Shown: in pieces, positions 8,630-33,122 of the stretch
How the letters are laid out: every line of letters starts with the position of its first letter
Numbering within the stretch: the first letter of the stretch is position 1
Program-made: the position numbers and the translations under genes
Notes under the pieces: generated by a model
Seen by the model: only the letters and a program-made list of their open reading frames with translations
Told to the model about the DNA's origin: nothing
Databases searched by the model: none
DNA from: Nocardioides nitrophenolicus
Lineage (GTDB): Bacteria > Actinomycetota > Actinomycetes > Propionibacteriales > Nocardioidaceae
NCBI RefSeq assembly: GCF_016907515.1
Contig: NZ_JAFBBY010000001.1
Coordinates: 5,208,001-5,272,000 of the forward strand
Reading direction: 5' to 3'
DNA: 64,000 bases

Positions 8630-8673
8630 TGCCCAGCACGCATCACGTCCGACACGACAACCAAGGAGAAAGA

Positions 8674-9660: not shown

Positions 9661-9677
9661 CCTCGCGCTGAGTGGAG

Positions 9678-9733: not shown

Positions 9734-9772
9734 GATGTAACACGTTGTTCGCGGGTGTGGTGGGTGTGCGAC

Positions 9773-9888: not shown

Positions 9889-9977
9889 CGACCCGACGCT
9901 GACGCCCGTGCCCCGGCCGGACGCCGCAGTGCGCCGACGTACGCCGACGTGCTGGTTCGAGCGCGCGAGTGTGCGAC

Positions 9978-10093: not shown

Positions 10094-10123
10094 CGCCCCA
10101 AACTCGAGCGCCGATCCCGGGCA

Positions 10124-10193
10124 TTGACACCCGGCCGGGCGCGGGTGATTCTAGATCTGTCTCGTATGACGCATTCAGTTGCGCAATACGCAA
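10124..10193 (+). promoter_or_regulatory. Promoter and paired operator-like sites of the dimethylglycine operon
   Basis: TTGACA (10124-10129), 17 bases, then GATTCT (10147-10152). Downstream come CGTATGACGCA (10163-10173), which is the exact reverse complement of TGCGTCATACG at 2320-2330 before betB, and the palindrome TTGCGCAATACGCAA (10179-10193; arms TTGCG/CGCAA). The ribosome binding site AAGGAG follows at 10212. The shared layout with the bet promoter suggests control by one regulator. Confidence 0.6.
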
Positions 10194-10222
10194 CCCACCG
10201 ACTCACCTTCCAAGGAGTCCCC

Positions 10223-15145: not shown

Positions 15146-15185
15146 GGCGCCCACCGTAGCGCCCGGTCCTGATTCCGGACCGTCG

Positions 15186-16746: not shown

Positions 16747-18249
16747 GTGTCCAACCAGCCCACCGAGCTCGCCGCCGAGCAGCACGCCCTGCTGCACAAG
16801 TCGCTGCGACGCTTCGACATCGTCTTCCTGCTGATCGCCGCCGTCGTCGGCCTCGAAACCCTCGGCCAGGTCTCCGGGTACGGCGCCGAGGCGTTCACCT
16901 GGGCCCTCGTGCTCGCCGTATTCTTCCTGGTCCCCTACGGGCTGATCTTCGCCGAGACCGGCGCGGCCTTCAGCGAGGAGGGCGGTGCCTACACCTGGGT
17001 CCGCGACGCCTTCGGGCGGCCCGCGGCGGCCGTCGCCGCGATCCTGACCTGGATCACCCAGCCGGTCTGGGTCGGCGGGTCGATGGCCTTCCTCGCCGCG
17101 GAGACCGTCAGCAGCTACCTGACCCCCATCGAGCACGGCTCCCTCGGCGACTACGTGTTCAAGGTCGTCTTCATCTGGATCACCGTGCTCGCCGCGGTGG
17201 TGAGCCTGCAGAAGGGCAAGTGGCTGCCGACCAGCGGCGCCCTGCTCAAGGTCGGCCTGCTGGTGTTCTTCGTGCTGACCACCGTCGTCTACGCCATCCA
17301 GAACGGCGTCGTCGCCCTCCATCCGGGCGACTTCAGCCCCACCCTGCTCGGACTCTTCGGCTCGGTGCCGATCCTGCTCTTCGCCTACCTCGGCTTCGAG
17401 TCCTCCAACAGCGCCGCCGGAGAGATGGAGAACCCCGCCCGCGACGTCCCGGTCTCGATCCTCCGGTCCTGCGCGACCGCCGCCGCCTGCTACCTGGTGC
17501 CGATCATGGCGATCCTGCTCGTCGTACCGGCCGAGGACATCACGGGCATCGGCGGCCTCTTCGACGCCGTCGGCACGGTCTACTCAGTCTACGGCGGCGC
17601 GGCCGACGTGCTGCTCAAGCTCACCGCCGTCGTCTTCGTCTACATCCTGATGAGCCAGGGCGCGGCGTGGATGATCATCTCCGACCGCATGCAGGCGATG
17701 ACCGCGGCCGACGGCTCGTTCTTCGGCGGCTTCTTCGGCCGCTTCCACCCCGGCCTCGGCACCCCGGTCCGCGTCAACATGCTCTCCGGCGTCGTGTCCA
17801 CCACGTTCATGCTCGTCGCGATGCAGGTCACCGGCGACGGCGCGTCGATCTTCGGGGTGGTGCTGACCATCTCGATCTCGACCTTCCTGCTCAGCTACCT
17901 GCTCGTCATCCCGGCGGCGATCCGGCTGCGCACCCGCTACCCGGACAAGGAGCGCCCGTTCCGCGTACCCGTCTCGGACCGCCAGTTCGCCGTGCTCGGC
18001 TGGATCGCCTTCGCCTGGGTGCTGCTGGGGTCGTGGGTGGCCGTCTTCCCCGGCACCCTGGAGCGGCTGTTCGGCGAGGACTACCCGTTCGAGGAGTACT
18101 GGGGCGTCAGCCAGGCCACGTTCGAGGTCTTCACGCTCGGCACCCTGGCCTTCCTGCTCGCCCTCTGCGCCGTGGGCTACGCCCTCGGTGCCCCCGTGCG
18201 CGCCTCCGGTGCCACCATCACGCCCGACACCGAGGAGATCTCCCGATGA
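16747..18249 (+). CDS. APC-superfamily amino acid/amine permease, probable histamine transporter
   Basis: 500 residues with about 12 hydrophobic segments, the first being FDIVFLLIAAVVGLETLG. The APC features are FAETGAAFSEEGGAYTWVRDAFG near TM2-3 and LFAYLGFESSNSAAGEMENPARDVP around TM6. The GTG start follows CAGGGGG by 5 bases and lies 17 bases after the dehydrogenase stop; the end overlaps the next gene by 4 bases. Sitting between the two enzymes of histamine oxidation, it most likely imports histamine by a cation-coupled mechanism. Members of the family also carry glutamate, GABA, putrescine and ethanolamine, so the substrate is inferred. Confidence 0.85.
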   Translation: MSNQPTELAAEQHALLHKSLRRFDIVFLLIAAVVGLETLGQVSGYGAEAFTWALVLAVFFLVPYGLIFAETGAAFSEEGGAYTWVRDAFGRPAAAVAAILTWITQPVWVGGSMAFLAAETVSSYLTPIEHGSLGDYVFKVVFIWITVLAAVVSLQKGKWLPTSGALLKVGLLVFFVLTTVVYAIQNGVVALHPGDFSPTLLGLFGSVPILLFAYLGFESSNSAAGEMENPARDVPVSILRSCATAAACYLVPIMAILLVVPAEDITGIGGLFDAVGTVYSVYGGAADVLLKLTAVVFVYILMSQGAAWMIISDRMQAMTAADGSFFGGFFGRFHPGLGTPVRVNMLSGVVSTTFMLVAMQVTGDGASIFGVVLTISISTFLLSYLLVIPAAIRLRTRYPDKERPFRVPVSDRQFAVLGWIAFAWVLLGSWVAVFPGTLERLFGEDYPFEEYWGVSQATFEVFTLGTLAFLLALCAVGYALGAPVRASGATITPDTEEISR

Positions 18250-20318
18250 CCGAGCAGCCCGCCGTGGCCGCGCCGTACGACGTCCTGTTCGAGCCCGTGC
18301 AGATCGGCCCGTTCACGACGAAGAACCGCTTCTACCAGGTGCCCCACTGCAACGGCATGGGCTACCGCGACCCCAGCGCGCAGGCCTCGATGCGCAAGAT
18401 CAAGGCCGAGGGCGGCTGGTCGGTCGTGTGCACCGAGCAGGTGGAGATCCACGCGACGTCCGACATCGCGCCGTTCATCGAGCTGCGGATCTGGGACGAC
18501 CAGGACCTGCCCGCGCTCAAGCGGATCGCCGACGCGATCCACGAGGGCGGCGGCCTGGCCGGCATCGAGCTGGCCCACAACGGCATGAACGCGCCCAACC
18601 AGCTCAGCCGCGAGACCCCGCTCGGGCCGCAGCACCTGCCGGTCGCGCCCGACACGATCGCGCCGGTGCAGGCGCGGGCGATGTCGAAGCAGGACATCGA
18701 CGACCTGCGGCGCTGGCACCGCAACGCCGTACGCCGCTCGCTCGAGGCGGGCTACGACGTCGTCTACGTCTACGGCGCCCACGGCTACGGCGCCCCCCAC
18801 CACTTCCTCTCGCGCCGCTACAACAACCGCACGGACGAGTACGGCGGCTCGCTGGAGAACCGGATGCGGCTGCTGAAGGAGCTGCTGGAGGACACGATCG
18901 AGGAGGTCGCCGGCCGCGCCGCCGTTGCCTGCCGGATCACGGTCGAGGAGGAGATCGACGGCGGCATCACCCGCGAGGACATCGAGGGCGTGCTGCGCGA
19001 GCTCGGCGAGCTGCCCGACCTGTGGGACTTCGCGATGGGCAGCTGGGAGGGCGACTCGGTCACCTCCCGGTTCGCGCCCGAGGGCCGTCAGGAGGAGTTC
19101 GTCGCCGGGCTGAAGAAGCTCACCACCAAGCCCGTCGTCGGCGTCGGTCGGTTCACCTCGCCCGACGCGATGGTGCGCCAGGTCAAGGCCGGGATCCTCG
19201 ACCTGATCGGCGCCGCCCGTCCCTCGATCGCGGACCCCTTCCTCCCCAACAAGATCCGCGACGGCCGGCTCAACCTGATCCGCGAGTGCATCGGCTGCAA
19301 CATCTGCGTCTCCGGCGACCTCACCATGTCGCCGATCCGCTGCACCCAGAACCCCAGCATGGGCGAGGAGTGGCGCCGTGGCTGGCACCCGGAGCGGATC
19401 CGGGCCAAGGAGAGCGACAAGCGCGTGCTCGTCGTCGGAGCGGGCCCGTCCGGCCTCGAGGCGGCGCGGGCGCTCGGCGTACGTGGCTACGAGGTCGTGC
19501 TGGCCGAGGCCGGACGCGACCTCGGCGGCCGGGTCGCTGCCGAGTCGCGGCTGCCCGGGCTGTCGGCCTGGGGCCGGGTCAAGGAGTACCGCGAGGCGGT
19601 GCTCGCCGAGCTGCCCAACGTCGAGATCTACCGCGAGAGCCCGATGTCGGGCGACGACATCGTCGAGTTCGGCTTCGAGCACGTCATCACGGCGACCGGC
19701 GCCTCGTGGCGCACCGACGGCGTCGCGCGCTTCCACACCACCCCGCTGCCGATCGCCGAGGGCGCGCAGGTGCTCGGCCCGGACGACCTGTTCGCCGGCC
19801 GGCTGCCCGAGGGCAGGAAGGTCGTCGTGTACGACGACGACCACTACTACCTGGGTGGCGTCGTCGCCGAGCTGCTCGCCCAGCAGGGCTACGACGTCTC
19901 CATCGTCACCCCGGCCCCGCAGGTCTCGTCGTGGACCAACAACACCTTCGAGATCAACCGGATCCAGCGCCGGATCATCGAGAACGGCATCACCCGGGTC
20001 CTCGACCACGCCGTCGTCGCCGTCGGTGCGGGCGGCGTGACGGTCCGCGAGACCTACACCGGCGCCGAGCGCGACCTCGACTGCGACGCCGTCGTCATGG
20101 TGACGGCCCGGTTGCCGCGCGAGGAGCTCTACCTGGACCTGGTCGCGCGTCGCGAGGCCGGCGAGATCGCGTCGGTGCGGGGGATCGGCGACGCCTGGGC
20201 CCCCGGCACCATCGCCGCGGCGGTGTGGTCGGGCCGACGCGCGGCCGAGGAGTTCGACGCGGTCCTGCCCTCGAACGACGAGGTCCCGTTCCGGCGGGAG
20301 GTCACGGCACTGGCCTGA
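18246..20318 (+). CDS. Histamine dehydrogenase (6-S-cysteinyl-FMN, 4Fe-4S; TMADH family)
   Basis: 690 residues, the length of Nocardioides simplex histamine dehydrogenase. An FMN TIM-barrel has Cys35 in FYQVPHCNG, the attachment site of 6-S-cysteinyl FMN. The cluster ligands are Cys348, 351, 354 (CIGCNIC) and Cys366. A dinucleotide-fold half follows (VLVVGAGPSGLEAARALG). In trimethylamine dehydrogenase the amine is held by Tyr60, Trp264 and Trp355; in histamine dehydrogenase these are Gln65, Trp267 and Asp358. By counting from Met1, this protein has Gln65, Trp267 and Asp358 at exactly those numbers. It would deaminate histamine to imidazole acetaldehyde, ammonia and electrons. The physiological acceptor is unknown; etfBA lie 4 kb upstream. 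Confidence 0.93.
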   Translation: MTEQPAVAAPYDVLFEPVQIGPFTTKNRFYQVPHCNGMGYRDPSAQASMRKIKAEGGWSVVCTEQVEIHATSDIAPFIELRIWDDQDLPALKRIADAIHEGGGLAGIELAHNGMNAPNQLSRETPLGPQHLPVAPDTIAPVQARAMSKQDIDDLRRWHRNAVRRSLEAGYDVVYVYGAHGYGAPHHFLSRRYNNRTDEYGGSLENRMRLLKELLEDTIEEVAGRAAVACRITVEEEIDGGITREDIEGVLRELGELPDLWDFAMGSWEGDSVTSRFAPEGRQEEFVAGLKKLTTKPVVGVGRFTSPDAMVRQVKAGILDLIGAARPSIADPFLPNKIRDGRLNLIRECIGCNICVSGDLTMSPIRCTQNPSMGEEWRRGWHPERIRAKESDKRVLVVGAGPSGLEAARALGVRGYEVVLAEAGRDLGGRVAAESRLPGLSAWGRVKEYREAVLAELPNVEIYRESPMSGDDIVEFGFEHVITATGASWRTDGVARFHTTPLPIAEGAQVLGPDDLFAGRLPEGRKVVVYDDDHYYLGGVVAELLAQQGYDVSIVTPAPQVSSWTNNTFEINRIQRRIIENGITRVLDHAVVAVGAGGVTVRETYTGAERDLDCDAVVMVTARLPREELYLDLVARREAGEIASVRGIGDAWAPGTIAAAVWSGRRAAEEFDAVLPSNDEVPFRREVTALA

Positions 20319-21108
20319 GGTCCAGCTCGAGGATCCGGTGGTCCGAGACCTCCGGCTCCGCCCGGACCCGGAAGCCCGCGACGGCTTCCGGGTCCGAGAC
20401 GAGCAGGTAGCTCGCGTGCCGCACCGGCTTGGGGTACGCCGAGGTGCGGGTGTCGGCCGTGCCGACCAGGTCGTGCAGCCCGACCCCGCGCAGCACCTCG
20501 AAGGTCGAGCTGTCGGGCAGCAGGTTGAGGTCGCCGGCGAGCACCACGAGGTCGCCGGGATCCCGGGTCGCCTCCACGAAGTCGGCGATCCGCTCGGCCT
20601 GCTCCTTGCGCGCCGGGGTGTCCCCCTTGCCGGCGGGGTCGCGCAGGCCGTGCAGCTGGACGACGCACACGGTGCGGCCGGCGGCCCGGTCGACGACGCG
20701 CACCGCCTGCACCGCTCGCGGCCGGTCGGCGATCGTCCACTCGTCGTGGTCGACGAAGCCGCCGTGCACGAAGCCGCCCGCCATCCCGACGACGGGCAGC
20801 CGCTCGCTCAGGTAGGTGCCGAGCCCGAAGTCCTGCTGGTGCCGGTGGCCGGCGTCGTCGGTGACCGGGCCGGCGTCACTGGCCAGGAACAGCGCCTCGT
20901 AGGACGGCAGCAGGCGGCGTACGTCGGCGTGCAGGTCGGCGCGCTGGGGGAGGGAGCGCTCGCCGTCGGCGAAGGAGGTCCAGCCGGCCAGGCCGGGGGT
21001 GCGGGTGACCTCCTGGAGGCAGACGACGTCGGCACCGGAGGCGGGCAGCCAAGCCGCGAGGTCGTCGTAGCGGGCACCGCCCCAGGCGTTGACCGAGACG
21101 ATGCGCAT
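20302..21108 (-). CDS. Endonuclease/exonuclease/phosphatase-family hydrolase
   Basis: 268 residues of the EEP fold. Metal and catalytic motifs are in order: SVNAWGG (Asn), CLQEV (Glu), QLHGLRD, GDLNLLPDS (Asp/Asn) and the terminal SDHRILEL (Asp-His). No signal peptide is evident, so the product is cytosolic. The family covers DNA repair nucleases, sphingomyelinase-like and inositol-phosphate phosphatases; nothing here picks one. It begins 12 bases after the nitrilase-type gene, so the two form a minus-strand operon. The 3' end runs 17 bases into the convergent histamine dehydrogenase gene. Confidence 0.82.
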   Translation of the reverse strand: MRIVSVNAWGGARYDDLAAWLPASGADVVCLQEVTRTPGLAGWTSFADGERSLPQRADLHADVRRLLPSYEALFLASDAGPVTDDAGHRHQQDFGLGTYLSERLPVVGMAGGFVHGGFVDHDEWTIADRPRAVQAVRVVDRAAGRTVCVVQLHGLRDPAGKGDTPARKEQAERIADFVEATRDPGDLVVLAGDLNLLPDSSTFEVLRGVGLHDLVGTADTRTSAYPKPVRHASYLLVSDPEAVAGFRVRAEPEVSDHRILELDLRPVP

Positions 21109-21120
21109 GCGCCGAGTCTG

Positions 21121-21948
21121 TCAGAGGGCGTAGAGCTCCGGCCGGGTGTCCGTCCACAGTGCGGCGTTGTGGGCGTCGGCGTCGGCGATCCCGGCGGCCA
21201 GGTCGACCGTGCAGGTCACGACCGCCGGTCCGCCCGCGTCGTGGCGGGGTGCCTCGACGACGCCGCTGCCGTCGGGCGCGATCACCCGGCTGCGGCCGAA
21301 CATCGCGGCGTCGCCCTCGCCGCCCGCCTGGTTGACGGTGATCCACCACTGGCCGTTGGCGAGCGCGTGCGCCGGGTGCAGCAGCTCCCACCAGCGCTCG
21401 GCGCCGGCCTCGTACGCCGCGGGCATGACCACCAGCCGGGCACCCCGCTCGCGCAGCGCCCGGGCGTACGCCGCGTGGTCGCCGTCGAAGCAGGTCGCCA
21501 TGCCGACCCGGCCGAAGGGCTCGGTGTCGAGGACGGTGGCCTCCGATCCGGCCGCGAAGACGGCGTCCTCGGCGGTGGGGCGGTAGAGGTGTGCCTTGCG
21601 GTGCCGGGCGACGATCTGGCCGGCCGGGTCGTAGACCACCGTGGTGTTGTACGTCGACCCGTCGGCGAGCTCCGGGACGGACCCGGCGAACAGCCACACC
21701 CGGTGGGTGCGCGCCGCCGCGGCCAACGCGTCGCTGCGCGGGCCGGGGACCGGCTCGGCGGCCGCGGCGACGATCGCGCCGAGCCGCGGGGCGTCGTAGC
21801 CACTGGCCCACAGCTCCGGCAGCACCACCAGCTCGGCGCCCTGGCCGGCCGCCTCGGCGATCAGCGCGAGCGCGGTCGCGAGGTTGGTGGCGGGCTCGCC
21901 GGGGACGGCGTGCCACTGCACCAGCCCGATGGTGACGCGGTCCTGCAT
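21121..21948 (-). CDS. Carbon-nitrogen hydrolase (nitrilase superfamily amidase)
   Basis: 275 residues with the full catalytic set: Glu45 in VVLPELWASG, Lys118 in HRKAHLYRP and Cys153 in GMATCFDGDH. Such enzymes hydrolyse amides, carbamoyl groups or nitriles by a cysteine acyl intermediate. The tail after the catalytic core (MPAAYE, FGRSRVIAPDG) is that of the amidase/N-carbamoyl-type branches. It is divergent from the NCS1 permease operon with 165 bases between, so it is probably part of the same catabolic system. A formyl- or formimino-amide formed during imidazole ring breakdown is a possible substrate, but this is inference. Confidence 0.85.
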   Translation of the reverse strand: MQDRVTIGLVQWHAVPGEPATNLATALALIAEAAGQGAELVVLPELWASGYDAPRLGAIVAAAAEPVPGPRSDALAAAARTHRVWLFAGSVPELADGSTYNTTVVYDPAGQIVARHRKAHLYRPTAEDAVFAAGSEATVLDTEPFGRVGMATCFDGDHAAYARALRERGARLVVMPAAYEAGAERWWELLHPAHALANGQWWITVNQAGGEGDAAMFGRSRVIAPDGSGVVEAPRHDAGGPAVVTCTVDLAAGIADADAHNAALWTDTRPELYAL

Positions 21949-22022
21949 GGCTGCTCCTTCGCGACGGTGGAGCCCTCATCCCATGCGGCGGCCCAGGTGA
22001 TGTCAATGCGTCAGGTCATCGC

Positions 22023-22035
22023 TTTTGTCGATGCT
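22023..22035. promoter_or_regulatory. Candidate operator in the nitrilase/permease divergent region
   Basis: TTTTGTCGATGCT here matches TTTCGCCGATGCT at 27525-27537 in 11 of 13 positions. Both lie in divergent intergenic regions of the 20-32 kb cluster. The GCTGAGC that follows is an imperfect centre with TTTTG and CGAAAA flanks. The LysR regulator at 31271 is the only regulator in the cluster. No promoter hexamers could be assigned with confidence. Confidence 0.35.
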
Positions 22036-22113
22036 GAGCAACGAAAACCGGTGTTGGTCGGCGGCCTCCCGCGCGCCTTACGGTGAGCGGGATCACGGCC
22101 CAGAGGGGGACCC

Positions 22114-23535
22114 ATGCACGACGAGGCGATCGAGACCACGCTGACGGTCGAGAAGCGCACCATCGACCACATCCCGGTGACCGAGCGGCACGGCAAGGCG
22201 CGGGACCTGTTCACGATCTGGTTCGGGTCCAACATCATGCTGCTCACCGTCGCCACCGGGGTCGTCGCGACGGCCGTCTACGGCCTGCCGGTGTGGGCCG
22301 CCGTCATCGCGCTGGTCGTCGGTCACGCGCTGGGTGGCGTCGTGATGGCGCTGCACGCGGCGCAGGGCCCGCAGATGGGCGTGCCCCAGATGCTCCAGAC
22401 GCGGGCCCAGTTCGGCTCCTACGGCAGCCTGCTCGTGGTCATCCTGGTGATCTTCATGTACGTCGGCTTCTTCGCCTCCAACATGGTCCTCGGCGGCCAG
22501 GCGGTCTCCAGCCTGTTCCATCTCGACGAGACCGTCTCGATCATCCTGATCGGCCTGGTGAGCGTGGTCGGCGCGATCGTCGGCTACCGGATGATCCACG
22601 CCCTGACCGGCCTGATGAGCCTGGTCTCGGGCGTGGTGCTCGCCCTCGCGTTCGTGTGGATCCTCGCGGTCAACGACCTGCCGACCGGCACCTTCCACTC
22701 CGACGGCGCCACCCTGGCCGGGTTCATGGGCACCATCTCGCTGGCCGCGCTGTGGCAGATCGCCTACGCGCCGTACGTCTCCGACTACACCCGCTACATG
22801 CCGCGCGACACCGGCGTCCGGCCGGCGTTCTGGGCGACCTACGCCGGCGCGGTCCTCGGCTCGCTGTTCCCGATGATCCTCGGCGCGATCGTCGGTGCGG
22901 CCCTGCCGGAGTCCGACACCGTCTCCGGCCTGCAGGACCTGACCCACGGCGTGGGCGGCCTGGTGATCGCGGTCTTCGGCATCGGCATCGCCTGCACCAA
23001 CGCGATGAACCTCTACTGCGGCGCGCTCTCCACGATCACCGTCGGACAGACCCTCTTCCCGCGGTGGGTGCCGGGCGCCGCCGCGCGCGGCGTCGTCTCG
23101 GGTGTCCTCTTCCTCGCCGCGGTCGTGATGGCACTCGCCGGCAAGGACGACTTCCTGGTCAACTTCACCAACTTCATGCTCCTGCTGCTGTGCGTGCTGG
23201 TGCCGTGGACCGCGGTGAACCTGGTCGACTACTACCTGCTCAAGCACGGCGAGTACGACATCGACTCGCTCTTCGAGCGCGACGGTGGCCGCTACGGCCG
23301 GTTCAACCTGATCGCCGTCGCCTGCTACTTCCTCGGCATCGCGGTCCAGATCCCGTTCCTGGTCACCACCAAGTACACCGGCCCGATCGGCGAGCGGCTC
23401 GACTACGTCGACATCTCGTGGATCGTCGGGCTCGCGGTGATCTGCCCGCTCTACCTGTTCCTGATGCGGCGCTTCGCCCGCTTCTCCGGCCATCGCCCGG
23501 TCGTGGAGGCGGCCGCGCAGGGCGGCGTCGCATGA
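22114..23535 (+). CDS. NCS1-family (purine/cytosine/allantoin-type) permease
   Basis: 473 residues with about 12 membrane segments. Typical NCS1 pieces are RDLFTIWFGSNIMLLTVATG (TM1), GPQMGVPQMLQTRAQFG after TM2, APYVSDYTRYMP and PWTAVNLVDYYLLKHGEYDI. The ATG follows AGAGGGGG. The family imports nucleobases, hydantoin, allantoin, thiamine and related N-heterocycles with H+ or Na+. The gene overlaps a GMC oxidoreductase gene by 4 bases and is divergent from the nitrilase-type amidase. With a histamine operon next door, an imidazole compound such as imidazoleacetate is a reasonable candidate substrate, but sequence alone does not show it. Confidence 0.88.
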   Translation: MHDEAIETTLTVEKRTIDHIPVTERHGKARDLFTIWFGSNIMLLTVATGVVATAVYGLPVWAAVIALVVGHALGGVVMALHAAQGPQMGVPQMLQTRAQFGSYGSLLVVILVIFMYVGFFASNMVLGGQAVSSLFHLDETVSIILIGLVSVVGAIVGYRMIHALTGLMSLVSGVVLALAFVWILAVNDLPTGTFHSDGATLAGFMGTISLAALWQIAYAPYVSDYTRYMPRDTGVRPAFWATYAGAVLGSLFPMILGAIVGAALPESDTVSGLQDLTHGVGGLVIAVFGIGIACTNAMNLYCGALSTITVGQTLFPRWVPGAAARGVVSGVLFLAAVVMALAGKDDFLVNFTNFMLLLLCVLVPWTAVNLVDYYLLKHGEYDIDSLFERDGGRYGRFNLIAVACYFLGIAVQIPFLVTTKYTGPIGERLDYVDISWIVGLAVICPLYLFLMRRFARFSGHRPVVEAAAQGGVA

Positions 23536-25055
23536 CCGACTTCGACTACCTGGTCGTCGGGGGCGGTACGTCGGGCAGCCTGCTCGCAGCGCGCCTCAGC
23601 GAGGACCCGGACGTCACCGTCGGGCTCCTCGAGTGGGGGCCCGACGACGAGCACGAGCCGCGGGCCCGCGAGCTGCGCCGCTGGGCGGAGATGCTCGAGG
23701 GCGAGTACGACCTCGACTACCGCAGCGTCGCCCAGGAGCGCGGGAACTCCGCGATCCGTCAGGCCCGGCTGCGGATCCTCGGCGGCTGCTCGAACGGCAA
23801 CACGATGATCTCGTGGCGCACGCTCGCCGCCGACCTCGACGAGTGGGTCGAGCGTGGCGCGGCGGGCTGGGACGCCGCGACGGTGCAGCCGTACTACGAC
23901 CGGCTGCGGACGCCGATCCAGCCGGTCGCTCCCGAGGACCGCAACCCGATGGTCGCCGACATGGTCACCGCGGCCGCGGCGGCGCTCGACGTACCGCTCC
24001 AGGAGGCCTGGAACGACGGCCGGCTCGACGAGCGTGCCGAGGGCGCCGGCTTCTTCGAGGTCGGCTACACGCCCGAGGGCAACGTCCGGTCCTCGACCTC
24101 GATCCACTACCTCCACCCCGCCCGGGCGACCCGCGACAACCTGCACGTCGTCCTGGACGCGCGGGTGGAGCGGGTCGACGTCGTCGACGGCCGCGCCGTG
24201 GGCGTCGAGGCGCGGGTCGACGGCGCGCTGGTCCGGTTCGGTGCGCGGCGCGAGGTGGTCCTGTGCGCCGGCGCGATCGACACGCCGCGGCTGCTGCAGC
24301 TGTCCGGCATCGGGCCGCGCGACGTGCTGGAGGCCGCGGGAGTGCCGGTGGTGCTCGACCTGCCCGGCGTGGGGGAGAACCTGATGGACCACGCCGAGGG
24401 CCTGGTCGTCTGGGAGCTCGCGGACGCGCCCCCGGACACCTGTGCGAGCGGGTGGGACGCCGGCGCGCTGGTGAGCGTCATGGAGCCCGACGACCGCCCC
24501 GACGTGCTCATGCACTTCCCGGTCGAGCCCTGGGCCGTCCACGCCGAGGCGTACGGCGCCGTCCTGCCCGAGCGGATCGTCTCGATCGCCCCCAACGTCG
24601 CCCGCCCCGCCTCCCGCGGCCGGGTCTGGATCACCTCGGCCGACCCCGAGGTCGCGCCCTCGATCGACTACCGCTACTTCACCGACCCATCCGGGCAGGA
24701 CGAGGCCGTGCTGGTCGCCGGCATCCGGCTCGCCCGCCGGATCGGCGAGGCCGAGCCGTTCGCCTCGCGGCTGGTCCGTGAGGTCTTCCCCGGCCCGGAC
24801 GTGCAGAGCGACGAGCAGATCAGCGCGGTCGCCCGCGCCACGCACCAGACCGTCTACCACGTCTCCGGCACCTGCCGGATCGGCGCGGACGACGACCCGG
24901 GCGCCGTGCTGCGTCCCGACCTCACGGTGCGCGGGATCGAGGGCCTGCGGGTGGTCGACGCCTCGGTGTTCCCGCAGCTGGTCGCCACCAACCCGGTCGT
25001 GACCGTGATGATGGTGGCCGAGCGGGCGGCGGACCTGATCTCGGGCCGGGTCTGA
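23532..25055 (+). CDS. GMC-family FAD alcohol oxidoreductase
   Basis: 507 residues, shorter than the choline dehydrogenase at 3856. FAD-binding DYLVVGGGTSGSLLAARLSED, GMC motifs RILGGCSNGNTMISWR and CAGAIDTPRLLQLSGIG, catalytic His in YHVSGTCRIG and an Asn partner in LVATNPVVTVMM. It should oxidise a primary or secondary alcohol to the carbonyl. Overlap with the permease gene (ATGA) implies that its substrate enters by that permease. Imidazole-ethanol type alcohols would fit a histamine locus; this is speculation. Its 3' end converges on the deacetylase-like gene 16 bases away. Confidence 0.87.
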   Translation: MTDFDYLVVGGGTSGSLLAARLSEDPDVTVGLLEWGPDDEHEPRARELRRWAEMLEGEYDLDYRSVAQERGNSAIRQARLRILGGCSNGNTMISWRTLAADLDEWVERGAAGWDAATVQPYYDRLRTPIQPVAPEDRNPMVADMVTAAAAALDVPLQEAWNDGRLDERAEGAGFFEVGYTPEGNVRSSTSIHYLHPARATRDNLHVVLDARVERVDVVDGRAVGVEARVDGALVRFGARREVVLCAGAIDTPRLLQLSGIGPRDVLEAAGVPVVLDLPGVGENLMDHAEGLVVWELADAPPDTCASGWDAGALVSVMEPDDRPDVLMHFPVEPWAVHAEAYGAVLPERIVSIAPNVARPASRGRVWITSADPEVAPSIDYRYFTDPSGQDEAVLVAGIRLARRIGEAEPFASRLVREVFPGPDVQSDEQISAVARATHQTVYHVSGTCRIGADDDPGAVLRPDLTVRGIEGLRVVDASVFPQLVATNPVVTVMMVAERAADLISGRV

Positions 25056-25071
25056 CGGGAGCCGGTACCCC

Positions 25072-26190
25072 TCAGGAGCCCAGCTCGGCGGCCAGCTCGG
25101 CCACGATCTCCAGCTGGTGGCGCACGGTCCGCTCCGACGGCTGCTGGGCGACGAAGGTCTCCTCGAACGGGTCGACGACCTCGGTGCGGATGCCGGACAG
25201 CGTCTCGACGATGGCCAGCCCGCAGAACGGGACCTCCGACTCGGCGTACCCTCCCTCGTGGACGGCCACCACGCGGCCCTCGCAGACCTCGTCGGCCACC
25301 TCCATGACCATCGCGGTCAGCTGGCGGAAGCTGTCGGCGTACAGCAGCTGGCGGGCCAGCGGGTCGACCATGTTGGCGTCGAGGCCGCTGGCGATCACGA
25401 TCAGGTCGGGGGAGTAGGCGCGCAGTGCGGGCAGCACGATCTCGCGCATCGCCGCCAGGTAGGTCTCGTGTCCCGAGCCCGGCGGCAGCGGCACGTTGAG
25501 GTTGTGGCCGAGCCCGGCGCCGGCGCCGCGCTCCTCGGTGCCGCCGGAGTCCACCGGGAAGCAGTTCTCCTGGTGGATCGAGATGGTGAGCACGTCGTCG
25601 CGCTCGTAGTAGACGGCCTGGGTGCCGTTGCCGTGGTGCACGTCCCAGTCGAGGACGGCGACCTTGCCCAGGCCGTGCTCGGCCTTCGCCGCCTCGATCG
25701 CGATCGCGATGTTGGCGAGCAGGCAGAAGCCCATCCCCTCGTCGGGGAGGCAGTGGTGGCCCGGCGGCCGGGACAGGGCGTAGGCATTGCGGTAGCGACC
25801 GGTCACGACGTCGGCGACCGCGCGCTTGGCGAGGCCGGCGGACAGCGCGGCGATCTCGAAGCCACCGTGCGAGAACAGCGCCTCGGGCCCGATCTCGCCA
25901 CCGCGGCCGGCGGAGAGCTCGCGGAAGTTGTCGACGTACGACTCCGGGTGCACCCGCAGCAGGTCCTCCCGGGTGACCGGCTCGGCGCTGTGCACGGCGA
26001 GCTGGTCGGTCAGGCCGGAGACGTCCATCAGCGACTTGAACCGTCGCTTGGACTCGGGGGACTCGGGGTGTCCTCCGGTCGCCAGCGGCTGCAGCCAGCC
26101 GCCGACCGGGAGGAAGAGCACGGCCTCGCCGGTGCTGTGCCACAGGCACCGCTCGTCGTGGTAGAACGCGGTCCGCGTCTGCTCGCTCAT
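25072..26190 (-). CDS. HDAC-superfamily deacetylase/amidohydrolase (class II-like)
   Basis: 372 residues of the arginase-deacetylase fold. RPPGHHCLPDEGMGFC supplies the His145/His146 pair; zinc ligands are Asp183 and His185 in DWDVHHGNG and Asp271 in SGLDANMVDP; the HEGGY motif gives a further conserved glycine loop near the end. All catalytic residues are present. Bacterial relatives remove acetyl groups from polyamines or other amines. The start overlaps the stop of the monooxygenase gene (ATGA on the minus strand), so both are on one transcript. It could act on an acylated amine intermediate, including an N-acetylated or N-formylated one. The exact substrate is not shown. Confidence 0.85.
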   Translation of the reverse strand: MSEQTRTAFYHDERCLWHSTGEAVLFLPVGGWLQPLATGGHPESPESKRRFKSLMDVSGLTDQLAVHSAEPVTREDLLRVHPESYVDNFRELSAGRGGEIGPEALFSHGGFEIAALSAGLAKRAVADVVTGRYRNAYALSRPPGHHCLPDEGMGFCLLANIAIAIEAAKAEHGLGKVAVLDWDVHHGNGTQAVYYERDDVLTISIHQENCFPVDSGGTEERGAGAGLGHNLNVPLPPGSGHETYLAAMREIVLPALRAYSPDLIVIASGLDANMVDPLARQLLYADSFRQLTAMVMEVADEVCEGRVVAVHEGGYAESEVPFCGLAIVETLSGIRTEVVDPFEETFVAQQPSERTVRHQLEIVAELAAELGS

Positions 26191-27461
26191 GCGGTCGGCG
26201 CCTCGTAGGTCAGGTAGCTGCGCTGGGTCGCGATGTGCCCGGCGACGTGCTTCGCATCGTGCCAGACGCCCCAGATGAAGCTCGACCCGCGACGCGAGAG
26301 CCAGGGCAGGCCGACGAAGTAGATGCCGGGCTCGGCGGAGACGCCGCGGCGGTGCGCGGGCCGGCCGCTCTCGTCGAGCGCGCCGGCGGGGAGCCAGGAG
26401 TAGTCGGTGGCGAAGCCGGTGGCCCACACGATCGAGGTGATGCCGGCCTCGGCGAGGTCGAGGGCGAGCAGCGGGTCGGTCACGCTGGCGGGGTCGGCGC
26501 CGAGCACCCGGGCCTCGGGCTCCTCGGGCAGGTCCATCCCGTTGGCCTCGACCCAGGCGTCGGCCTGGTCGAGCAGCGCCAGCAGGTTGGCGTCGCCGGC
26601 GGCGATGTTGGCGGCGAGGTCGCCGCGGAAGGTGAGCACGCCGTCGGCGTACCGGTCGGTCATGCCGACCAGCGTGATGCCCTGCGCGGCGAGCGCGCGG
26701 AAGTCGACGGTGTGCCCGCCGCGCGCGCCGCTGACGGCGATGGTGACGTGCTCGGCGCCGGCGGCCGGCGTCTCGAGGTCCCACAGGCCCAGCACGCCCA
26801 GCCACCAGCAGAAGTCGCGGCCGCGGTAGCTGCGCGGCGGGCGGTCGTGCGGGCCGACGGAGAGGTACACCTGGCGGCCCGAGCGCTGCAGCTCGTCGGC
26901 GATCTGGACGCCGGACGAGCCGGCGCCGACCACCAGCACGTTGCCCTCGGGCAGCTGCGCGGGGTTGCGGTAGTCGCTGGAGTGGATCTGCACGGGCACG
27001 GGACCGTCGGGGCCCTCGGGCACGATCGGCGGGAACACCGGCTTCTGGAACGGGCCGGTGGCGGCCACGACGTACCTGGCCTCGACGATGCCGTCGGAGG
27101 TCTCCACCCGGAAGCCGGGGCGGCCCTGGTTGCGGATCACCGAGGTGACCTCGACGCCGGTGCGGATCGGCGCGGCGATCTTCTCGGCGTACGCCTCGAA
27201 GTAGGCGGCGACCTGGTCCTTGGTGGCGAACTCGTCGGGCGCGACGTCGGGGAACTCCAGGCCGGGGAAGCGGTCGTGCCAGGCGGGGCCGTTGGCGACC
27301 AGCGAGTCCCAGCGCATGGTGCGCCACCGCTCGGCGATCCGCTCGCGCTCGAGGACGAGGTGGGGGATGCCGTTGTCGCTGAGGTGCTCGCTCATCGCGA
27401 CGCCGGCCTGACCGGCGCCGACGACGAGGACCTCGACCCGCTGGGGTTCCTGGTGGGACAT
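26187..27461 (-). CDS. FAD/NAD(P)-binding flavin monooxygenase (CzcO/FMO-like)
   Basis: 424 residues from the ATG of MSHQEPQRVEV; an earlier in-frame ATG lies inside the regulatory repeats and was not used. There are two dinucleotide folds: FAD-binding VLVVGAGQAGVAMSEHL near the N terminus and NADPH-binding NVLVVGAGSSGVQIADEL near residue 180, with ATG-type motifs (VVAATGPFQKP, IVWATGFATDY). The fold is that of class B monooxygenases (N-hydroxylating, Baeyer-Villiger and related). It is first in a minus-strand operon with the deacetylase-like gene and divergent from RidA. In the histamine-route hypothesis it would be the imidazoleacetate monooxygenase; note that the Pseudomonas enzyme of that name need not be of this class. 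Confidence 0.85.
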   Translation of the reverse strand: MSHQEPQRVEVLVVGAGQAGVAMSEHLSDNGIPHLVLERERIAERWRTMRWDSLVANGPAWHDRFPGLEFPDVAPDEFATKDQVAAYFEAYAEKIAAPIRTGVEVTSVIRNQGRPGFRVETSDGIVEARYVVAATGPFQKPVFPPIVPEGPDGPVPVQIHSSDYRNPAQLPEGNVLVVGAGSSGVQIADELQRSGRQVYLSVGPHDRPPRSYRGRDFCWWLGVLGLWDLETPAAGAEHVTIAVSGARGGHTVDFRALAAQGITLVGMTDRYADGVLTFRGDLAANIAAGDANLLALLDQADAWVEANGMDLPEEPEARVLGADPASVTDPLLALDLAEAGITSIVWATGFATDYSWLPAGALDESGRPAHRRGVSAEPGIYFVGLPWLSRRGSSFIWGVWHDAKHVAGHIATQRSYLTYEAPTA

Positions 27462-27492
27462 GGGACGATCGTCGGTCGAGCCGATTGGTCCT

Positions 27493-27623
27493 GTCCAACA
27501 GATCTTCTTGGTCCACTGCATTGGTTTCGCCGATGCTCGGCGGCAGTGTCCGGGCTACATCTGCTCGATTGATGCCCGATGCCGGAAAGATCTGTTGGAC
27601 ACATGGCCGGGTGTCCAGTGGAC
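27493..27623. promoter_or_regulatory. Divergent control region with long perfect inverted repeats
   Basis: GTCCAACAGATCTT (27493-27506) recurs as its exact reverse complement AAGATCTGTTGGAC (27587-27600). A second pair, GTCCACTG (27511-27518) and CAGTGGAC (27616-27623), follows in the same order on each side, and the last lies in the palindrome GTCCAGTGGAC (27613-27623). Each side therefore carries two GTCCA/TGGAC boxes. The region separates the minus-strand monooxygenase operon from the plus-strand ridA-to-LysR operon, so a dimeric or tetrameric regulator, perhaps looping DNA, is expected. Confidence 0.65.
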
Positions 27624-27631
27624 TGGTGCGC

Positions 27632-28069
27632 ATGAGCAGCATCGTCGTCGGCGGCCACACCCGCATCCGTCCGTTCAACACCAGCGTCACCTACCCCGAG
27701 CAGAACCTCGACAACGACCTGTGCCAGGCCGTGGTCGCGGGCAACACGGTGTACGTGCGCGGCCAGATCGGCCAGGACCTGGACACCAGTGAGTCCGTGG
27801 GCATCGGCGACGTCGAGGCCCAGACCGAGCAGGCGATGGCCAACATCAAGATGCTGCTCGAGGAGGCCGGGGCCCGGATGGAGCACCTGGTCAAGCTCAC
27901 CATCTACATCGTCGACCCGCGCTACCGCGAGACCGTCTACCGGACCATCGGCCGCTGGACCAAGGGCGTGCACCCGATCTCCACCGGCATCGTCGTCTCC
28001 GCGCTCGCCCGCCCGGAGTGGCTGGTCGAGGTGGACGCGATCGCGGTGATCTCGGAGGACGCGCAGTGA
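27632..28069 (+). CDS. RidA-family (YjgF/UK114) enamine/imine deaminase-like protein
   Basis: 145 residues, slightly longer than typical RidA (about 130) because of an N-terminal extension (SSIVVGGHTRIRPFNTSVTYPEQN). The family core is VVAGNTVYVRGQIGQD, a QAMANIKMLLEEAGARMEHLVKLTIYI helix-strand block and the end ARPEWLVEVDAIAVI with the conserved Glu. The typical active-site Arg before the final strand reads SALARPEW here. RidA proteins hydrolyse reactive enamines/imines or act in ring-opening pathways. It starts a seven-kilobase chain of overlapping genes ending in aspartase, so an imine-type intermediate such as formiminoaspartate could be its target (inference). Confidence 0.85.
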   Translation: MSSIVVGGHTRIRPFNTSVTYPEQNLDNDLCQAVVAGNTVYVRGQIGQDLDTSESVGIGDVEAQTEQAMANIKMLLEEAGARMEHLVKLTIYIVDPRYRETVYRTIGRWTKGVHPISTGIVVSALARPEWLVEVDAIAVISEDAQ

Positions 28070-28734
28070 CGTTCTCGGTCCTCGGCACCGACGGCAAGGG
28101 CGCCGTCGGCATCGCCGTGACGTCGTCCAGCCCGGCCGTGGCCGCGCGCTGCATCCACCTGCGCCCCGGCGTGGGCGGCGCGTCGTCCCAGAACATCACC
28201 GACCCCCGCCTCGGAACGGCGCTCCTGGACGCGCTCCAGAGCGGCCTCGACGCCCGCGCCGCGCTCGCGAGCGTCACCGAGGGCCGCGAGCACATCGAGC
28301 ATCGCCAGCTCACGGTGCTCACCCTCGACGGCCGGGGCGCGGCGTACTCCGGCGCCGGGTCGCTCGGCGTCCACCACCAGGTCGTGGGCGACCAGGTCGT
28401 CGCGGCCGGCAACCTGCTGGCCACGACCGAGGTCGTCGACGCGGTCGCGGCGGGCTTCGCGGCCGCCTCCGGCGAGCTCGAGGAGCGGCTGCTCGCCGCG
28501 CTGGAGGCCGGACTGGCCGCCGGCGGCGAGGCCGGACCGGTCCGCTCGGCGGGCCTGTCCGTCGTCCGCGACGTCGACTGGCGCGAGACCGACCTGCGGG
28601 TCGACTGGAGCGACGACCCGATCGGTCAGCTCCGCGAGCTGCTGGGAGTCTGGCTGCCGCAGCGCGACGACTACGTGACGCGCGGGATCGACCCCACCAC
28701 CGCCCCGTCGTACGGCGTCCCCGGGGACGAGTGA
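28066..28734 (+). CDS. DUF1028-family protein (Ntn-hydrolase-like)
   Basis: 222 residues beginning VTFSVLGTDGKGAVGIAVTSSSPAVAARC, the diagnostic N terminus of DUF1028 (TFSI/VxxxDxxTGxxGxAVxS pattern), continuing with GVGGASSQNITDPRLG and LTVLTLDGRGAAYSGAG. The GTG overlaps the ridA stop by 4 bases. The fold is related to N-terminal nucleophile hydrolases, but no reaction is established that I can cite. The chemistry is therefore open; a role in amide hydrolysis beside RidA and an M20 amidohydrolase would fit. Confidence 0.85.
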   Translation: MTFSVLGTDGKGAVGIAVTSSSPAVAARCIHLRPGVGGASSQNITDPRLGTALLDALQSGLDARAALASVTEGREHIEHRQLTVLTLDGRGAAYSGAGSLGVHHQVVGDQVVAAGNLLATTEVVDAVAAGFAAASGELEERLLAALEAGLAAGGEAGPVRSAGLSVVRDVDWRETDLRVDWSDDPIGQLRELLGVWLPQRDDYVTRGIDPTTAPSYGVPGDE

Positions 28735-29851
28735 TGAGGGACCAGGCCGCCGCCACCGTCGCCGCCGACGCCGAGCGCCTGATCCGGCTCTCCGAGCAGC
28801 TCCACGCCCACCCCGAGCTCGGCTGGGAGGAGCACGACTCGTCGCGCTGGGTCGCCGAGACGCTCGCCGAGGTCGGGTACGACGTCACGCCGGCCTATCT
28901 GGGCCTCGAGACGGCGTTCCACGCCACCATCGGCAGCGGCCCGTTCCGCCTCGGCCTGTGCGCCGAGTACGACGCCCTGCCGGGCCTGGGCCACGCCTGC
29001 GGCCACAACCTCATCTCCGCGATCACCGTCGGCGCCGCCCGCGCGCTGGCACCGCTGGCCGACCTGGCCGGCCTGACCATCGAGGTCTACGGCACCCCGG
29101 CCGAGGAGGGCGGCGGCGGCAAGATCGAGCTGCTCGAGCGCGGCGCCTTCCAGGGCCTGGACCTGGCGATGATGGCCCACCCGGCGCCGGTCGACGTCGC
29201 CGAGGCGGAGCCGTTCGCGGTGTCCCACTCCCACGTGGAGTACCGCGGCAAGGCGGCCCACGCGGCGGCGTACCCGGAGCAGGGGGTCAACGCCGCCGAC
29301 GCGTTCACCATCGCCCAGGTGGCGATCGGGCTGCTGCGCCAGCAGCTTCCCCCCACGGTCCGGGTGCACGGCGTGATGACCAACGGGGGAGAGGCGCCCA
29401 ACGCCATCCCCGCGCGCACTGAGGGCCGCTGGTACGTCCGGGCCGAGTCGCTCGCCCAGCTCGCCGAGACCGAGGAGCGGGTCTGGCGCTGCTTCGAGGC
29501 CGGCGCGCTCGCCACCGGCGCCACGCTCGAGGTGACGCCGGAGAGCAAGCCCTATGCGGAGTTCCGCACCTTCCAGCCCGCGCTCGACGCCTACAAGCGC
29601 AATGCCGTCGAGCTGGGTCGGACCTTCGACGAGACCTCGCCCGCACGCCGGATGAACCGCGCGTCCACCGACATGGGCAACGTCTCCCAGGTGGTGAACG
29701 CGATCCACCCCTACATCGGCATCAACTCGGGCACCGCGCTCAACCACCAGCCCGAGTTCGCGGCGCACTGCGTCGGCGGGGACGCCGAGAAGGCGCTGCT
29801 CGACGCGGCCACCGCGCTCGCCTGGACCGCGCTCGACGTCGCGGCGGCGCG

Positions 29852-29855
<4 letters not shown>
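28734..29855 (+). CDS. M20-family amidohydrolase (peptidase M20D-like deacylase)
   Basis: 373 residues. Metal-binding and catalytic motifs of the M20D/amidohydrolase group are present: LSEQLHAHPELGWEE, CAEYDALPGLGHACGHN, TPAEEGGGGKIELLERG and a dimerisation domain starting HSHVEYRGKAAHAAAYPEQG. Such enzymes cleave N-acyl or N-carbamoyl amino acids. The ATG overlaps the DUF1028 stop; a GTG one codon earlier is an alternative. The 3' end overlaps the aspartase gene by 4 bases, so its product may be aspartate: N-formyl-aspartate to aspartate plus formate would complete the imidazoleacetate route (inference). Confidence 0.87.
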
Positions 29856-31243
<1,388 letters not shown>

Positions 31244-31270
31244 CCACCGGGACCCGGGAGGTACGGCAGG

Positions 31271-32194
31271 ATGGCCGTCATGGCGGAGGTCGGCTTCACG
31301 CTCACCCAGCTGCGGTACTTCGCCGCGGCGGCGGAGCTCGGCTCGATGACCGCGGCCTCGAAGGAGCTGATGGTCTCCCAGTCGGCCGTGTCGACGGCGG
31401 TCGCCCAGCTGGAGAAGGAGCTCGGCGTCCAGCTGCTGCTGCGTCACCACGCCCGGGGGCTCACCCTGACCGCGGCCGGCGAGGCCTTCCAGCGCGAGCT
31501 GCGCAGCTATCTGGTCCACACCAGCGAGCTCGCCGAGGTGGCCCGGTCCGCCGGTCAGGCGCTCACCGGTGAGCTGACCGTCGGCTGCTTCACCAGCCTC
31601 GGCCCGTTCGAGCTGCCCCGGCTGCTCGCCGCCTGCGCCGCCGACCACCCCGGCATCCGGATCTCGGTGGTCGAGGACGAGCACGCCGCGCTCAAGCAGG
31701 CGCTGCGCTCGGGGCGCTGCGAGCTGGCGCTGATGTACGGCTACGACCTCGACGACGACATCGACCACGTCCGGGTGGGCGGCGCGCCGCCCTACGTCCT
31801 GCTGGCGCGCGACCACCGGCTCGCGCGGCGCAGGCGGATCGCGCTCAAGGAGCTCGCCGACGAGCCGATGGTGCTGCTCGACCTGCCCCACAGCCGGCAG
31901 TACTTCGAGCGCATCCTCGCCGCGGCCGGCGTCCGCCCGACCGTGCGGCACCGCAGCTCCGGCTTCGAGACGGTGCGCGCGCTGGTCGCCAACGGGCAGG
32001 GCTGGTCGGTCCTCAACCAGCGGCCGGCGAGCGACACGACGTACGACGGAGCGGAGGTCGTCACCCTCGAGATCGCCGACCCGGTCGAGTCGCTCGAGGT
32101 GGTCGTCGCCTCGATGAAGGACGTGCGGCTGACCGCGCGGGCTCAGGCGTTCGTGAGGTCCGCCGTCGCCACCCGGCGCCGGCCGAGGGCGTAG
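31271..32194 (+). CDS. LysR-family transcriptional regulator
   Basis: 307 residues. N-terminal winged HTH FTLTQLRYFAAAAELGSMTAASKELMVSQSAVSTAVAQLEKELGVQL is classic LysR; the remainder is a substrate-binding domain starting about residue 95 (GELTVGCFTSLGPFELPRLL). The ATG is 9 bases after GGGAGG. It is the last gene of the ridA-DUF1028-M20-aspA chain, and the only regulator within the 20-32 kb cluster. It may act at the repeat-rich divergent region at 27.5 kb and perhaps at 22.0 kb. An atypical location for a LysR gene (end of operon, not divergent) would make its expression self-reinforcing. Confidence 0.92.
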   Translation: MAVMAEVGFTLTQLRYFAAAAELGSMTAASKELMVSQSAVSTAVAQLEKELGVQLLLRHHARGLTLTAAGEAFQRELRSYLVHTSELAEVARSAGQALTGELTVGCFTSLGPFELPRLLAACAADHPGIRISVVEDEHAALKQALRSGRCELALMYGYDLDDDIDHVRVGGAPPYVLLARDHRLARRRRIALKELADEPMVLLDLPHSRQYFERILAAAGVRPTVRHRSSGFETVRALVANGQGWSVLNQRPASDTTYDGAEVVTLEIADPVESLEVVVASMKDVRLTARAQAFVRSAVATRRRPRA

Positions 32195-32700
32195 AGCGCG
32201 AAGCCGGTCGCCAGCAGCAGGCCGAGCAGCACCGCGATCCGCTGCCCGAACTGCGCCGGGTGGGCGGCGTCGAGGGCGGCGTAGACGGCGAGGTCGTCGC
32301 CGACGTACCAGAGCAGGTAGGCCGTCGGCGGGACCAGCCACGACAGCGGGTGCCACCAGCGCACGGCGTGGTGGTTGCGGCCGACGAGGACGAAGTCGAG
32401 GACGACCAGCGACGGCGTCACGACGTGCTCGAGCAGCGACCAGGCGTGCCACAGGTTGCCGTTCTGCATCGGCACGTAGGCCAGGCCGACCAGCACCATC
32501 AGCGTGGTCAGCGCGCCGCGCAGCCAGGGGGAGCGGGGCTCGCGGACCGCCAGCGCGAGGAAGCACCCGGCCACGGCCAGGTTGGAGAGCTGGGAGAGCG
32601 CGGTCCACCACACGTCGTACTCCCGCGCCGCGAGGACCACCCCGGTCGCGGCGCTGGCCGCGACGAGGAGGCGCCAGAGCGCGACAGGGAGGGTGTTCAC
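32143..32700 (-). CDS. Pr6Pr-like integral membrane protein
   Basis: 185 residues, six hydrophobic segments, GTG start. Segments include LPVALWRLLVAASAATGVVLA, LSQLSNLAVAGCFLALAV and TYVPMQNG-like loop AYVPMQNGNLWHAWSLLEHVVTPSLVVLDF, then WWHPLSWLVPPTAYLLWY. The pattern of Asn, His and Trp in the third to fifth segments is what I associate with Pr6Pr-type membrane proteins of actinobacteria, function unknown. The 3' end overlaps the convergent LysR gene by 52 bases. Confidence 0.7.
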   Translation of the reverse strand: MNTLPVALWRLLVAASAATGVVLAAREYDVWWTALSQLSNLAVAGCFLALAVREPRSPWLRGALTTLMVLVGLAYVPMQNGNLWHAWSLLEHVVTPSLVVLDFVLVGRNHHAVRWWHPLSWLVPPTAYLLWYVGDDLAVYAALDAAHPAQFGQRIAVLLGLLLATGFALYALGRRRVATADLTNA

Positions 32701-32772
32701 CGAGGCATGGTGTCACGTTCACCTCCCGTTCACCGAGCCCGCCCGGCGGGCCGGGCTCGATAGGGTCGGGCC

Positions 32773-33114
32773 ATGAGCGCTGACTGGCGGGCCGACACCG
32801 TCGAGAAGATCCGGTCCCTGATCGTGACGGCGGAGCCCGCCGTCGTCGAGGAGGCCAAGTGGAAGAAGGCGTCCAACCCCGACGGGGTGCCGACCTTCTC
32901 CGCCGACGGGCTGATCTGCACCGTCGAGACCTACAAGGACAAGGTCAAGGTCACCTTCGCGAAGGGCGCCTCGCTCGAGGACCCGACGGGGATCTTCAAC
33001 GCCAGCCTCGACGCCGGCACCCGGCGCGCCGTCGACGTGTTCGAGGGCGAGTCCCTCGACGACGAGGCGTTCGTCGCACTGGTCCGCGAGGCCGTCGCCC
33101 TCAACCGCGGCTGA
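32773..33114 (+). CDS. DUF1801-family small protein
   Basis: 113 residues. The pattern EEAKWKKASNPDGVPTFSADGLICTVETYKDKVKVTF, followed by GIFNASLDAGTRRAVDVFEG, fits the DUF1801 (YdhG-like) domain, a small alpha-beta fold of unknown role. It lies 8 bases before the RelZ-like gene and probably shares its transcript. No catalytic residues can be named. Confidence 0.72.
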   Translation: MSADWRADTVEKIRSLIVTAEPAVVEEAKWKKASNPDGVPTFSADGLICTVETYKDKVKVTFAKGASLEDPTGIFNASLDAGTRRAVDVFEGESLDDEAFVALVREAVALNRG

Positions 33115-33122
33115 CCGGCCGC

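Follow-up and report, generated by a model that had tools for sequence, protein, structure and literature searches.

A histamine dehydrogenase island in Nocardioides nitrophenolicus carries homologues of the hin genes for the predicted lower histamine pathway

INTRODUCTION

Does the gene cluster beside the histamine dehydrogenase gene of Nocardioides nitrophenolicus encode the lower half of histamine breakdown, and is it a form of the pathway known from Pseudomonas? The question arose from a stretch of 64,000 nucleotides (positions 5,208,001 to 5,272,000 of contig NZ_JAFBBY010000001.1; the window) within a 5.8-Mb single-contig genome, in which an initial annotation proposed a route from imidazoleacetate to fumarate at 20302-32194. 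Gene calls combined open frames and GC by codon position with scans for protein families. Our answer is that the island very probably holds a complete pathway from histamine to fumarate.

Histamine dehydrogenases are of interest in food testing, according to PMC10180351. The Pseudomonas genes hinFLHG are given as PA5393-PA5390, where hinF encodes a flavin adenine dinucleotide (FAD) monooxygenase (EC 1.14.13.5), hinL an enamine deaminase, hinH an amidase, and hinG an EC 3.5.1.8 amidase, and hinI encodes an aspartase; the histamine-metabolism genes of P. aeruginosa are reported to be induced 240- to 2200-fold by histamine (PMC8231116, PMC6467879). Work from 2018, as described in PMC8231116, found no hin genes in Gram-positives.

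RESULTS

The cluster consists of hin gene families

The window's flavin monooxygenase (FMO; 26187-27461, reverse strand) has at least 588 relatives in a genome collection; we took the best 80, 34 of them actinobacterial and 46 proteobacterial by organism name. FMO, RidA, and DUF1028 genes stood together in 76 of these 80 loci, in Actinobacteria and Proteobacteria alike. The window FMO is 74% identical over 415 amino acids to that of P. aeruginosa PA7 (locus L085), and the RidA-like protein (27632-28069, forward; PF01042) and the DUF1028 protein (28066-28734, forward; PF06267) are 67% and 54% identical to their L085 counterparts. The PA7 order is FMO, RidA, DUF1028, M20, and it follows from this order and these families, and from the genes flanking the PA7 locus, that L085 is PA5393-PA5390. 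The aspartase (aspartate ammonia-lyase; 29852-31243, forward) scored 660.8 bits with NF008909 (cut-off, 510) and 580.7 with TIGR00839, under the cut-off of 681.2. Together with the M20 gene, these are the families of hinF, hinL, hinH, hinG, and hinI, and the gene set is not an unknown one. Thus, the pathway proposed initially holds in outline, and the view that its genes differ from those of Pseudomonas does not, since the M20 subfamily alone differs. The LysR gene that follows (31271-32194, forward; PF03466/PF00126), HinK-like by position, is 26 to 42% identical to LysR genes of the proteobacterial loci, and LysR genes are also present in the sister clusters. HinK of Pseudomonas is a LysR regulator that responds to imidazoleacetate.

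Other assignments were considered. Among named models, TIGR04046 (MSMEG_0569 family) matched the FMO best, yet its 348 bits fell below the cut-off of 498; FMO matches of 39 to 44% in the 245-genome survey described below may belong to that family. Nitrosuccinate-type and vitamin B6-type pathways, suggested by the gene list, were set aside upon the hin match. Separately, we observed that three Pseudomonas loci (L027, L028, L034) have DUF1028-HinG apart from FMO-RidA, with LysR and aldehyde dehydrogenase genes between.

The island shares with the hin systems of Pseudomonas putida U and P. aeruginosa (hinFLHG, hinI, hinD, hinA, and hinK) the monooxygenase, RidA, DUF1028, M20, aspartase, aldehyde dehydrogenase, APC-type permease, and LysR families. 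It differs in having a histamine dehydrogenase (HADH) where Pseudomonas has the aminotransferase HinC, in gathering all of its genes in one island, and in the extra NCS1, GMC, nitrilase, and HDAC-like genes. Brevibacterium strains L261, S111, and S22 are also Actinobacteria: homologues of HinF, HinL, HinH, HinI, and HinD are listed at neighbouring locus numbers, and three Brevibacterium strains are reported to grow with histamine as their only source of carbon (PMC6467879). The initial phrase "undescribed actinobacterial version" was therefore too strong. Unlike the window, which has HADH, those strains are listed with a homologue of copper-type histamine oxidases and a weak homologue of HinC, and the locus number of their HinG homologue (40-43%) is distant (PMC6467879).

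Histamine dehydrogenase and hinF occur together

By its sequence, the gene at 18246-20318 (forward) encodes a genuine histamine dehydrogenase, as first annotated: the protein scored 1479.8 bits against PDB 3k30 ("Histamine dehydrogenase"), versus 507 for trimethylamine dehydrogenase, with a self-match of 1559.9. It is almost identical to 3k30, with no notable difference seen, and its translation contains what we take to be the 4Fe-4S cysteine pattern. Upstream on the same strand lie a HinD-like aldehyde dehydrogenase gene (15245-16729; PF00171), which reached no NCBIfam equivalog cut-off among the 25 models shown and is 86 to 90% identical in the HADH islands L088-L094, and an APC-type permease gene (16747-18249), called from its reading frame and translation and placed in its family by eye and position. 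The former would act on imidazole acetaldehyde, and the latter is the probable histamine importer; the permease adjoins HADH in L086, L088-L092, L096, and L105. A TetR-family regulator gene (14507-15154, reverse; PF00440) diverges from this operon and is found, 78 to 85% identical, adjoining aldehyde dehydrogenase-HADH in L088-L094.

We then surveyed 245 Nocardioidaceae genomes, counting FMO at ≥70% and HADH at ≥72% identity among the places listed. hinF was found in 23 genomes and HADH in 14, and all 14 HADH genomes carry hinF (naive Fisher p 4e-17, kinship of the genomes ignored). The absence of the cluster from other HADH strains, which would have spoken against the proposal, was thus not seen. 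The two genes lie on one contig, at most 9 kb apart, in 13 of the 14; in the last, whose genome is fragmented, they fall on two different contigs. HADH-like matches at 41 to 43% in four genomes were left out of the HADH count, and none of these genomes is among the 23. The grouping of HADH with the hin genes is not due to chance.

Twenty stretches (L086-L105, of which L086, L095, and L098 repeat named loci) were compared for gene order. L088-L094 share a compact block, LysR-aspartase-M20-DUF1028-RidA-FMO-HADH-(permease)-aldehyde dehydrogenase-TetR, and NCS1 (39-49%) stands at its far end; five of these seven have the permease, which went undetected in L093 and L094. Within the HADH islands fetched, the GMC, HDAC-like, and nitrilase genes were confined to the window, its closest relatives L086 and L087, and L096, the last having the GMC and HDAC-like genes in another order and no nitrilase. 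Within the 80 FMO loci, HADH homologues (56-58%) were found in 12 proteobacterial ones, 11 of them Mesorhizobium.

A conserved element precedes hinF and hinL

Between the divergent hinF and hinL genes, TGTCCAACAGATCTT stands at 27492-27506 (forward) before hinF and again, as a perfect inverted copy, at 27587-27601 (reverse) before hinL, each copy 30 bp from the respective start codon. Allowing up to three mismatches, the window holds three matches where 0.27 would be expected, these two and one at 35831 with three mismatches; across the genome the exact element occurs only at these two sites, and two one-mismatch sites lie elsewhere. Of 100 loci, repeats included, 45 have its 13-base core, CATCTGTTGGACA, before FMO at ≤2 mismatches; letter shuffles gave 0.2. 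With repeats dropped, the core precedes hinF in 42 of 53 loci from Actinobacteria and in none of the 46 from Proteobacteria, a further difference from the Pseudomonas system. A(G/C)GAT stands at -10 spacing in 39 of the 42 hinF sites, and an upstream half site, matched by a loose pattern, in 33. Before RidA, the core was found in 19 of 49 actinobacterial loci, none of the 19 with the -10. The element reads as a putative operator over the -35 box. A generic sigma-70 scan returned no promoter in 20000-32800.

At the other genes (≤2 mismatches, up to 300 bases upstream, repeats included), the operator was not found before NCS1 (0/33), GMC (0/10), aspartase (0/31), TetR (0/27), HDAC-like (0/5), or HADH (0/26) genes. 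It was found before 2 of 49 aldehyde dehydrogenase, 2 of 25 permease, and 4 of 59 LysR genes, some of which may be a neighbour's hinF site.

An NCS1-GMC module is associated with hinF

The NCS1 permease gene (22114-23535, forward; PF02133; 123.5 bits with TIGR00800, under its cut-off) overlaps a gene for a GMC oxidoreductase of the choline-oxidase-like subfamily (23532-25055, forward; PF00732/PF05199). The latter's closest solved structures are choline oxidases (382-394 bits), and choline/betaine-type genes lie upstream in the window. We therefore asked whether the pair has nothing to do with hin and is a second unit for choline uptake and oxidation, part of the choline/betaine island at 1-13.5 kb. 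The structural matches speak for this, and the distribution of the gene speaks against it. GMC orthologues (≥60%) are present in 9 of the 245 family genomes, all nine with hinF and four of them without HADH (naive p 1e-10). In a class-scale survey of 325 genomes, which covered GMC and hinF, GMC (≥58%) was found in six genomes, five with hinF, and hinF in 14 (naive p 4e-7). These five span five families, and in four the two genes share a contig within 15 kb.

The residues also argue against choline. In the comparison with choline oxidase, whose residue roles and numbering, including the flavin link at His99, we take as assumed, Glu312, His351, and His466 are kept in 15 of 15 sequences. By contrast, Ser101 is Thr and Asn510 is Val or Met in all 15, the Trp331 column is Gly or Asp in all 15 (the next column keeps Trp), and His99 is lost in 13. 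The window protein has G, T, and V at the His99, Ser101, and Asn510 positions and so lacks the residues expected of a choline oxidase. Imidazole ethanol, or another alcohol that carries a positive charge but is not choline, would suit as substrate, and the NCS1 protein would import an imidazole compound. Two observations weigh against a link of GMC to hin: genome G523 carries GMC (59%) and gave no hinF match at E≤1e-150, although its assembly is in about 230 contigs, and a GMC group at 48 to 52%, in 24 further class genomes, is without hinF. On balance, we regard the choline reading as improbable, yet worth keeping in mind; the module, tied to hin genes in five families and in some genomes without HADH, is possibly an entry point for an imidazole alcohol. 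A search of titles and the opening lines of abstracts returned no literature on bacterial catabolism of histaminol (imidazole ethanol).

In eight GMC stretches (L110-L117), NCS1 lies near GMC in seven and an aldehyde dehydrogenase directly beside it in four. Four hold TetR and the permease, three of them along with an Amidohydro_3 gene and one along with a class-III aminotransferase gene. In hin-linked islands, at L112:11938-13374 and L117:7736-9508, we observed a class-III aminotransferase or Amidohydro_3 hydrolase gene with permease and TetR, and HADH was not found there. These enzymes are perhaps alternative deaminating or histamine-releasing steps.

The deformylase position is filled by a different M20 subfamily

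The M20 amidohydrolase gene in the HinG position (28731-29855, forward) scored 193.3 bits with TIGR01891 (cut-off, 153.75), and its best solved relatives are Xaa-Arg dipeptidases (240 bits). It is not of the ArgE type, unlike Pseudomonas HinG of L069 (TIGR01892, 403.9). Among the 80 loci, the window-type M20 was found in 32 of the 34 actinobacterial ones, where ArgE-type HinG at ≥40% was found in none (two have 31-33% matches). HinG (≥43%) was found in 45 of the 46 proteobacterial loci, where the window type at ≥40% was found in none (one has a 33% match). L023, L038, and L054 have neither type within the compared DNA. As judged by subfamily assignment, a TIGR01891-type M20 replaces the ArgE-type HinG of Proteobacteria in Actinobacteria, a clean swap that is new. 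We suspect that a clustered M20 gene may also be the real HinG equivalent in Brevibacterium. On a separate note, Pseudomonas HinG at L069:12484-13725 passes the NCBIfam model of acetylornithine deacetylase (TIGR01892), and HinG may be mislabelled in automatic annotation as a result.

Could another amidohydrolase of the island be the formylaspartate deformylase instead? The nitrilase-superfamily gene (21121-21948, reverse; PF00795), divergent from NCS1, and the HDAC-like gene (25072-26190, reverse; PF00850), ATGA-coupled behind hinF, both encode amide hydrolases. However, no copy of either was found in L088-L095, eight sister islands that retain M20, and the window-type M20 or ArgE-type HinG is present in 77 of the 80 FMO loci, so this alternative is very unlikely. 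Because they were not found in L088-L095, the two genes are unlikely to be core steps and look accessory. Of the steps first assigned to the cluster, those of the monooxygenase, RidA/DUF1028, M20, and aspartase therefore stand, and that of the nitrilase is unlikely.

The nitrilase-type gene adjoins NCS1 in L110, L113, L114, and L117 (42-56%). The HDAC-like protein scored 505 bits with propanil hydrolase 9gku, and from such amidase relatives we guess, speculatively, at an N-acylhistamine deacylase. The gene (≥79%) is present in 5 of the 245 family genomes, all five with HADH, hinF, and GMC; this association is weak because four of the five are closely related. Homologues at 49 to 53% in G243, G065, and G519, the one in G243 more than 4 Mb from hinF, weigh against the link.

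HinH and HinL residues

DUF1028 has Thr2 in 94 of 94 readable starts, and its predicted structure is a proteasome/HslV-like sandwich, an Ntn hydrolase fold, with the nucleophile exposed after Met removal. Because of this fold and the conserved Thr2, HinH is probably an N-terminal-threonine hydrolase; our literature search found no mention of DUF1028. HinL has Ser117, kept in ≥97% of 96 aligned rows (repeats included), where the archetypal RidA imine deaminase has Arg. We take that residue to be Arg105 of an assumed E. coli reference sequence, and HinL is without it.

Gene order and surroundings

All genes named initially (NCS1, FMO, RidA, DUF1028, M20, nitrilase-type, HDAC-type, and aspartase) are present in 20302-32194. 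The GMC and LysR genes and an endonuclease/phosphatase-family gene found by family scan (20302-21108, reverse) were missing from that list. ATGA or GTGA overlaps at six borders (NCS1-GMC, FMO-HDAC, RidA-DUF1028, DUF1028-M20, M20-aspartase, and permease-HADH) suggest that, apart from the HADH operon, the transcription units are NCS1-GMC, FMO-HDAC, and RidA-DUF1028-M20-aspartase(-LysR).

The neighbouring island at 69-13524 is of choline/glycine-betaine/dimethylglycine type, with an MTTB-family end, an ACT-domain formyltransferase, IclR, aldehyde dehydrogenase, GMC, OpuA-type transport, and a dimethylglycine-dehydrogenase-like protein. Electron transfer flavoprotein genes (12742-14510) lie between it and the HADH operon and could take electrons from either dehydrogenase. 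On the other side, 32859-34877 is a single open frame with DUF429 and RelA/SpoT domains that may be two genes.

DISCUSSION

From the gene families, synteny, co-occurrence, operator, and residue patterns observed, we infer the substrates, the step order, and the operator-binding regulator of a route whose intermediates are those of the classical pathway. The permease would bring in histamine, HADH would deaminate it to imidazole acetaldehyde, and the aldehyde dehydrogenase would yield imidazoleacetate. HinF would oxygenate the ring to give imidazolone acetate, HinH would open the lactam to N-formiminoaspartate, and HinL would remove the imino nitrogen to leave N-formylaspartate, the split between HinH and HinL being our inference. 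The M20 enzyme, in the role of HinG, would deformylate this product, and the aspartase would release fumarate and ammonia. LysR probably binds the operator before hinF and hinL. The NCS1-GMC, nitrilase, and HDAC-like genes would be add-on modules that lead other imidazole compounds into the same path.

Several points weigh against a complete pathway. In the DNA fetched, several actinobacterial loci lack the aspartase. The window M20 shares only 25.4 bits with Pseudomonas HinG of L069, and its proposed role as N-formylaspartate deformylase is taken from position alone. The operator precedes 0 of 26 HADH genes even at ≤3 mismatches, so common regulation of the upper and lower parts is not supported. 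Finally, 9 of the 23 family genomes with hinF (≥70%) are without HADH at ≥72%. This last count, and the NCS1 family's transport of nucleobases and hydantoins, would suit a hin-like core for another N-heterocycle that lies beside HADH by chance, a reading rendered highly improbable by the 14 of 14 co-occurrence and by the histamine induction and mutant work reported for the same families in Pseudomonas (PMC8231116).

The complete histamine-to-fumarate pathway remains our preferred reading, and it puts genes for the lower half of histamine breakdown beside an HADH with a near-twin solved structure, 3k30. New here are the M20 swap, the conserved operator, the prediction of HinH as a threonine hydrolase, and the NCS1-GMC module. 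The swap suggests that best-hit hin annotation can miss the true deformylase in Actinobacteria, the HinH prediction is a concrete proposal of how DUF1028 proteins work as catalysts, and the operator is ready for defining the regulon. More tentatively, actinobacterial hin islands may be a hub for several imidazole compounds, in which GMC, coupled to NCS1 and often to an aldehyde dehydrogenase, would oxidise a cationic imidazole alcohol such as imidazole ethanol (histaminol) towards imidazoleacetate and the HDAC-like enzyme would free histamine from N-acylhistamine. If so, strains without HADH would still feed the pathway, by a catabolic route that is undescribed.

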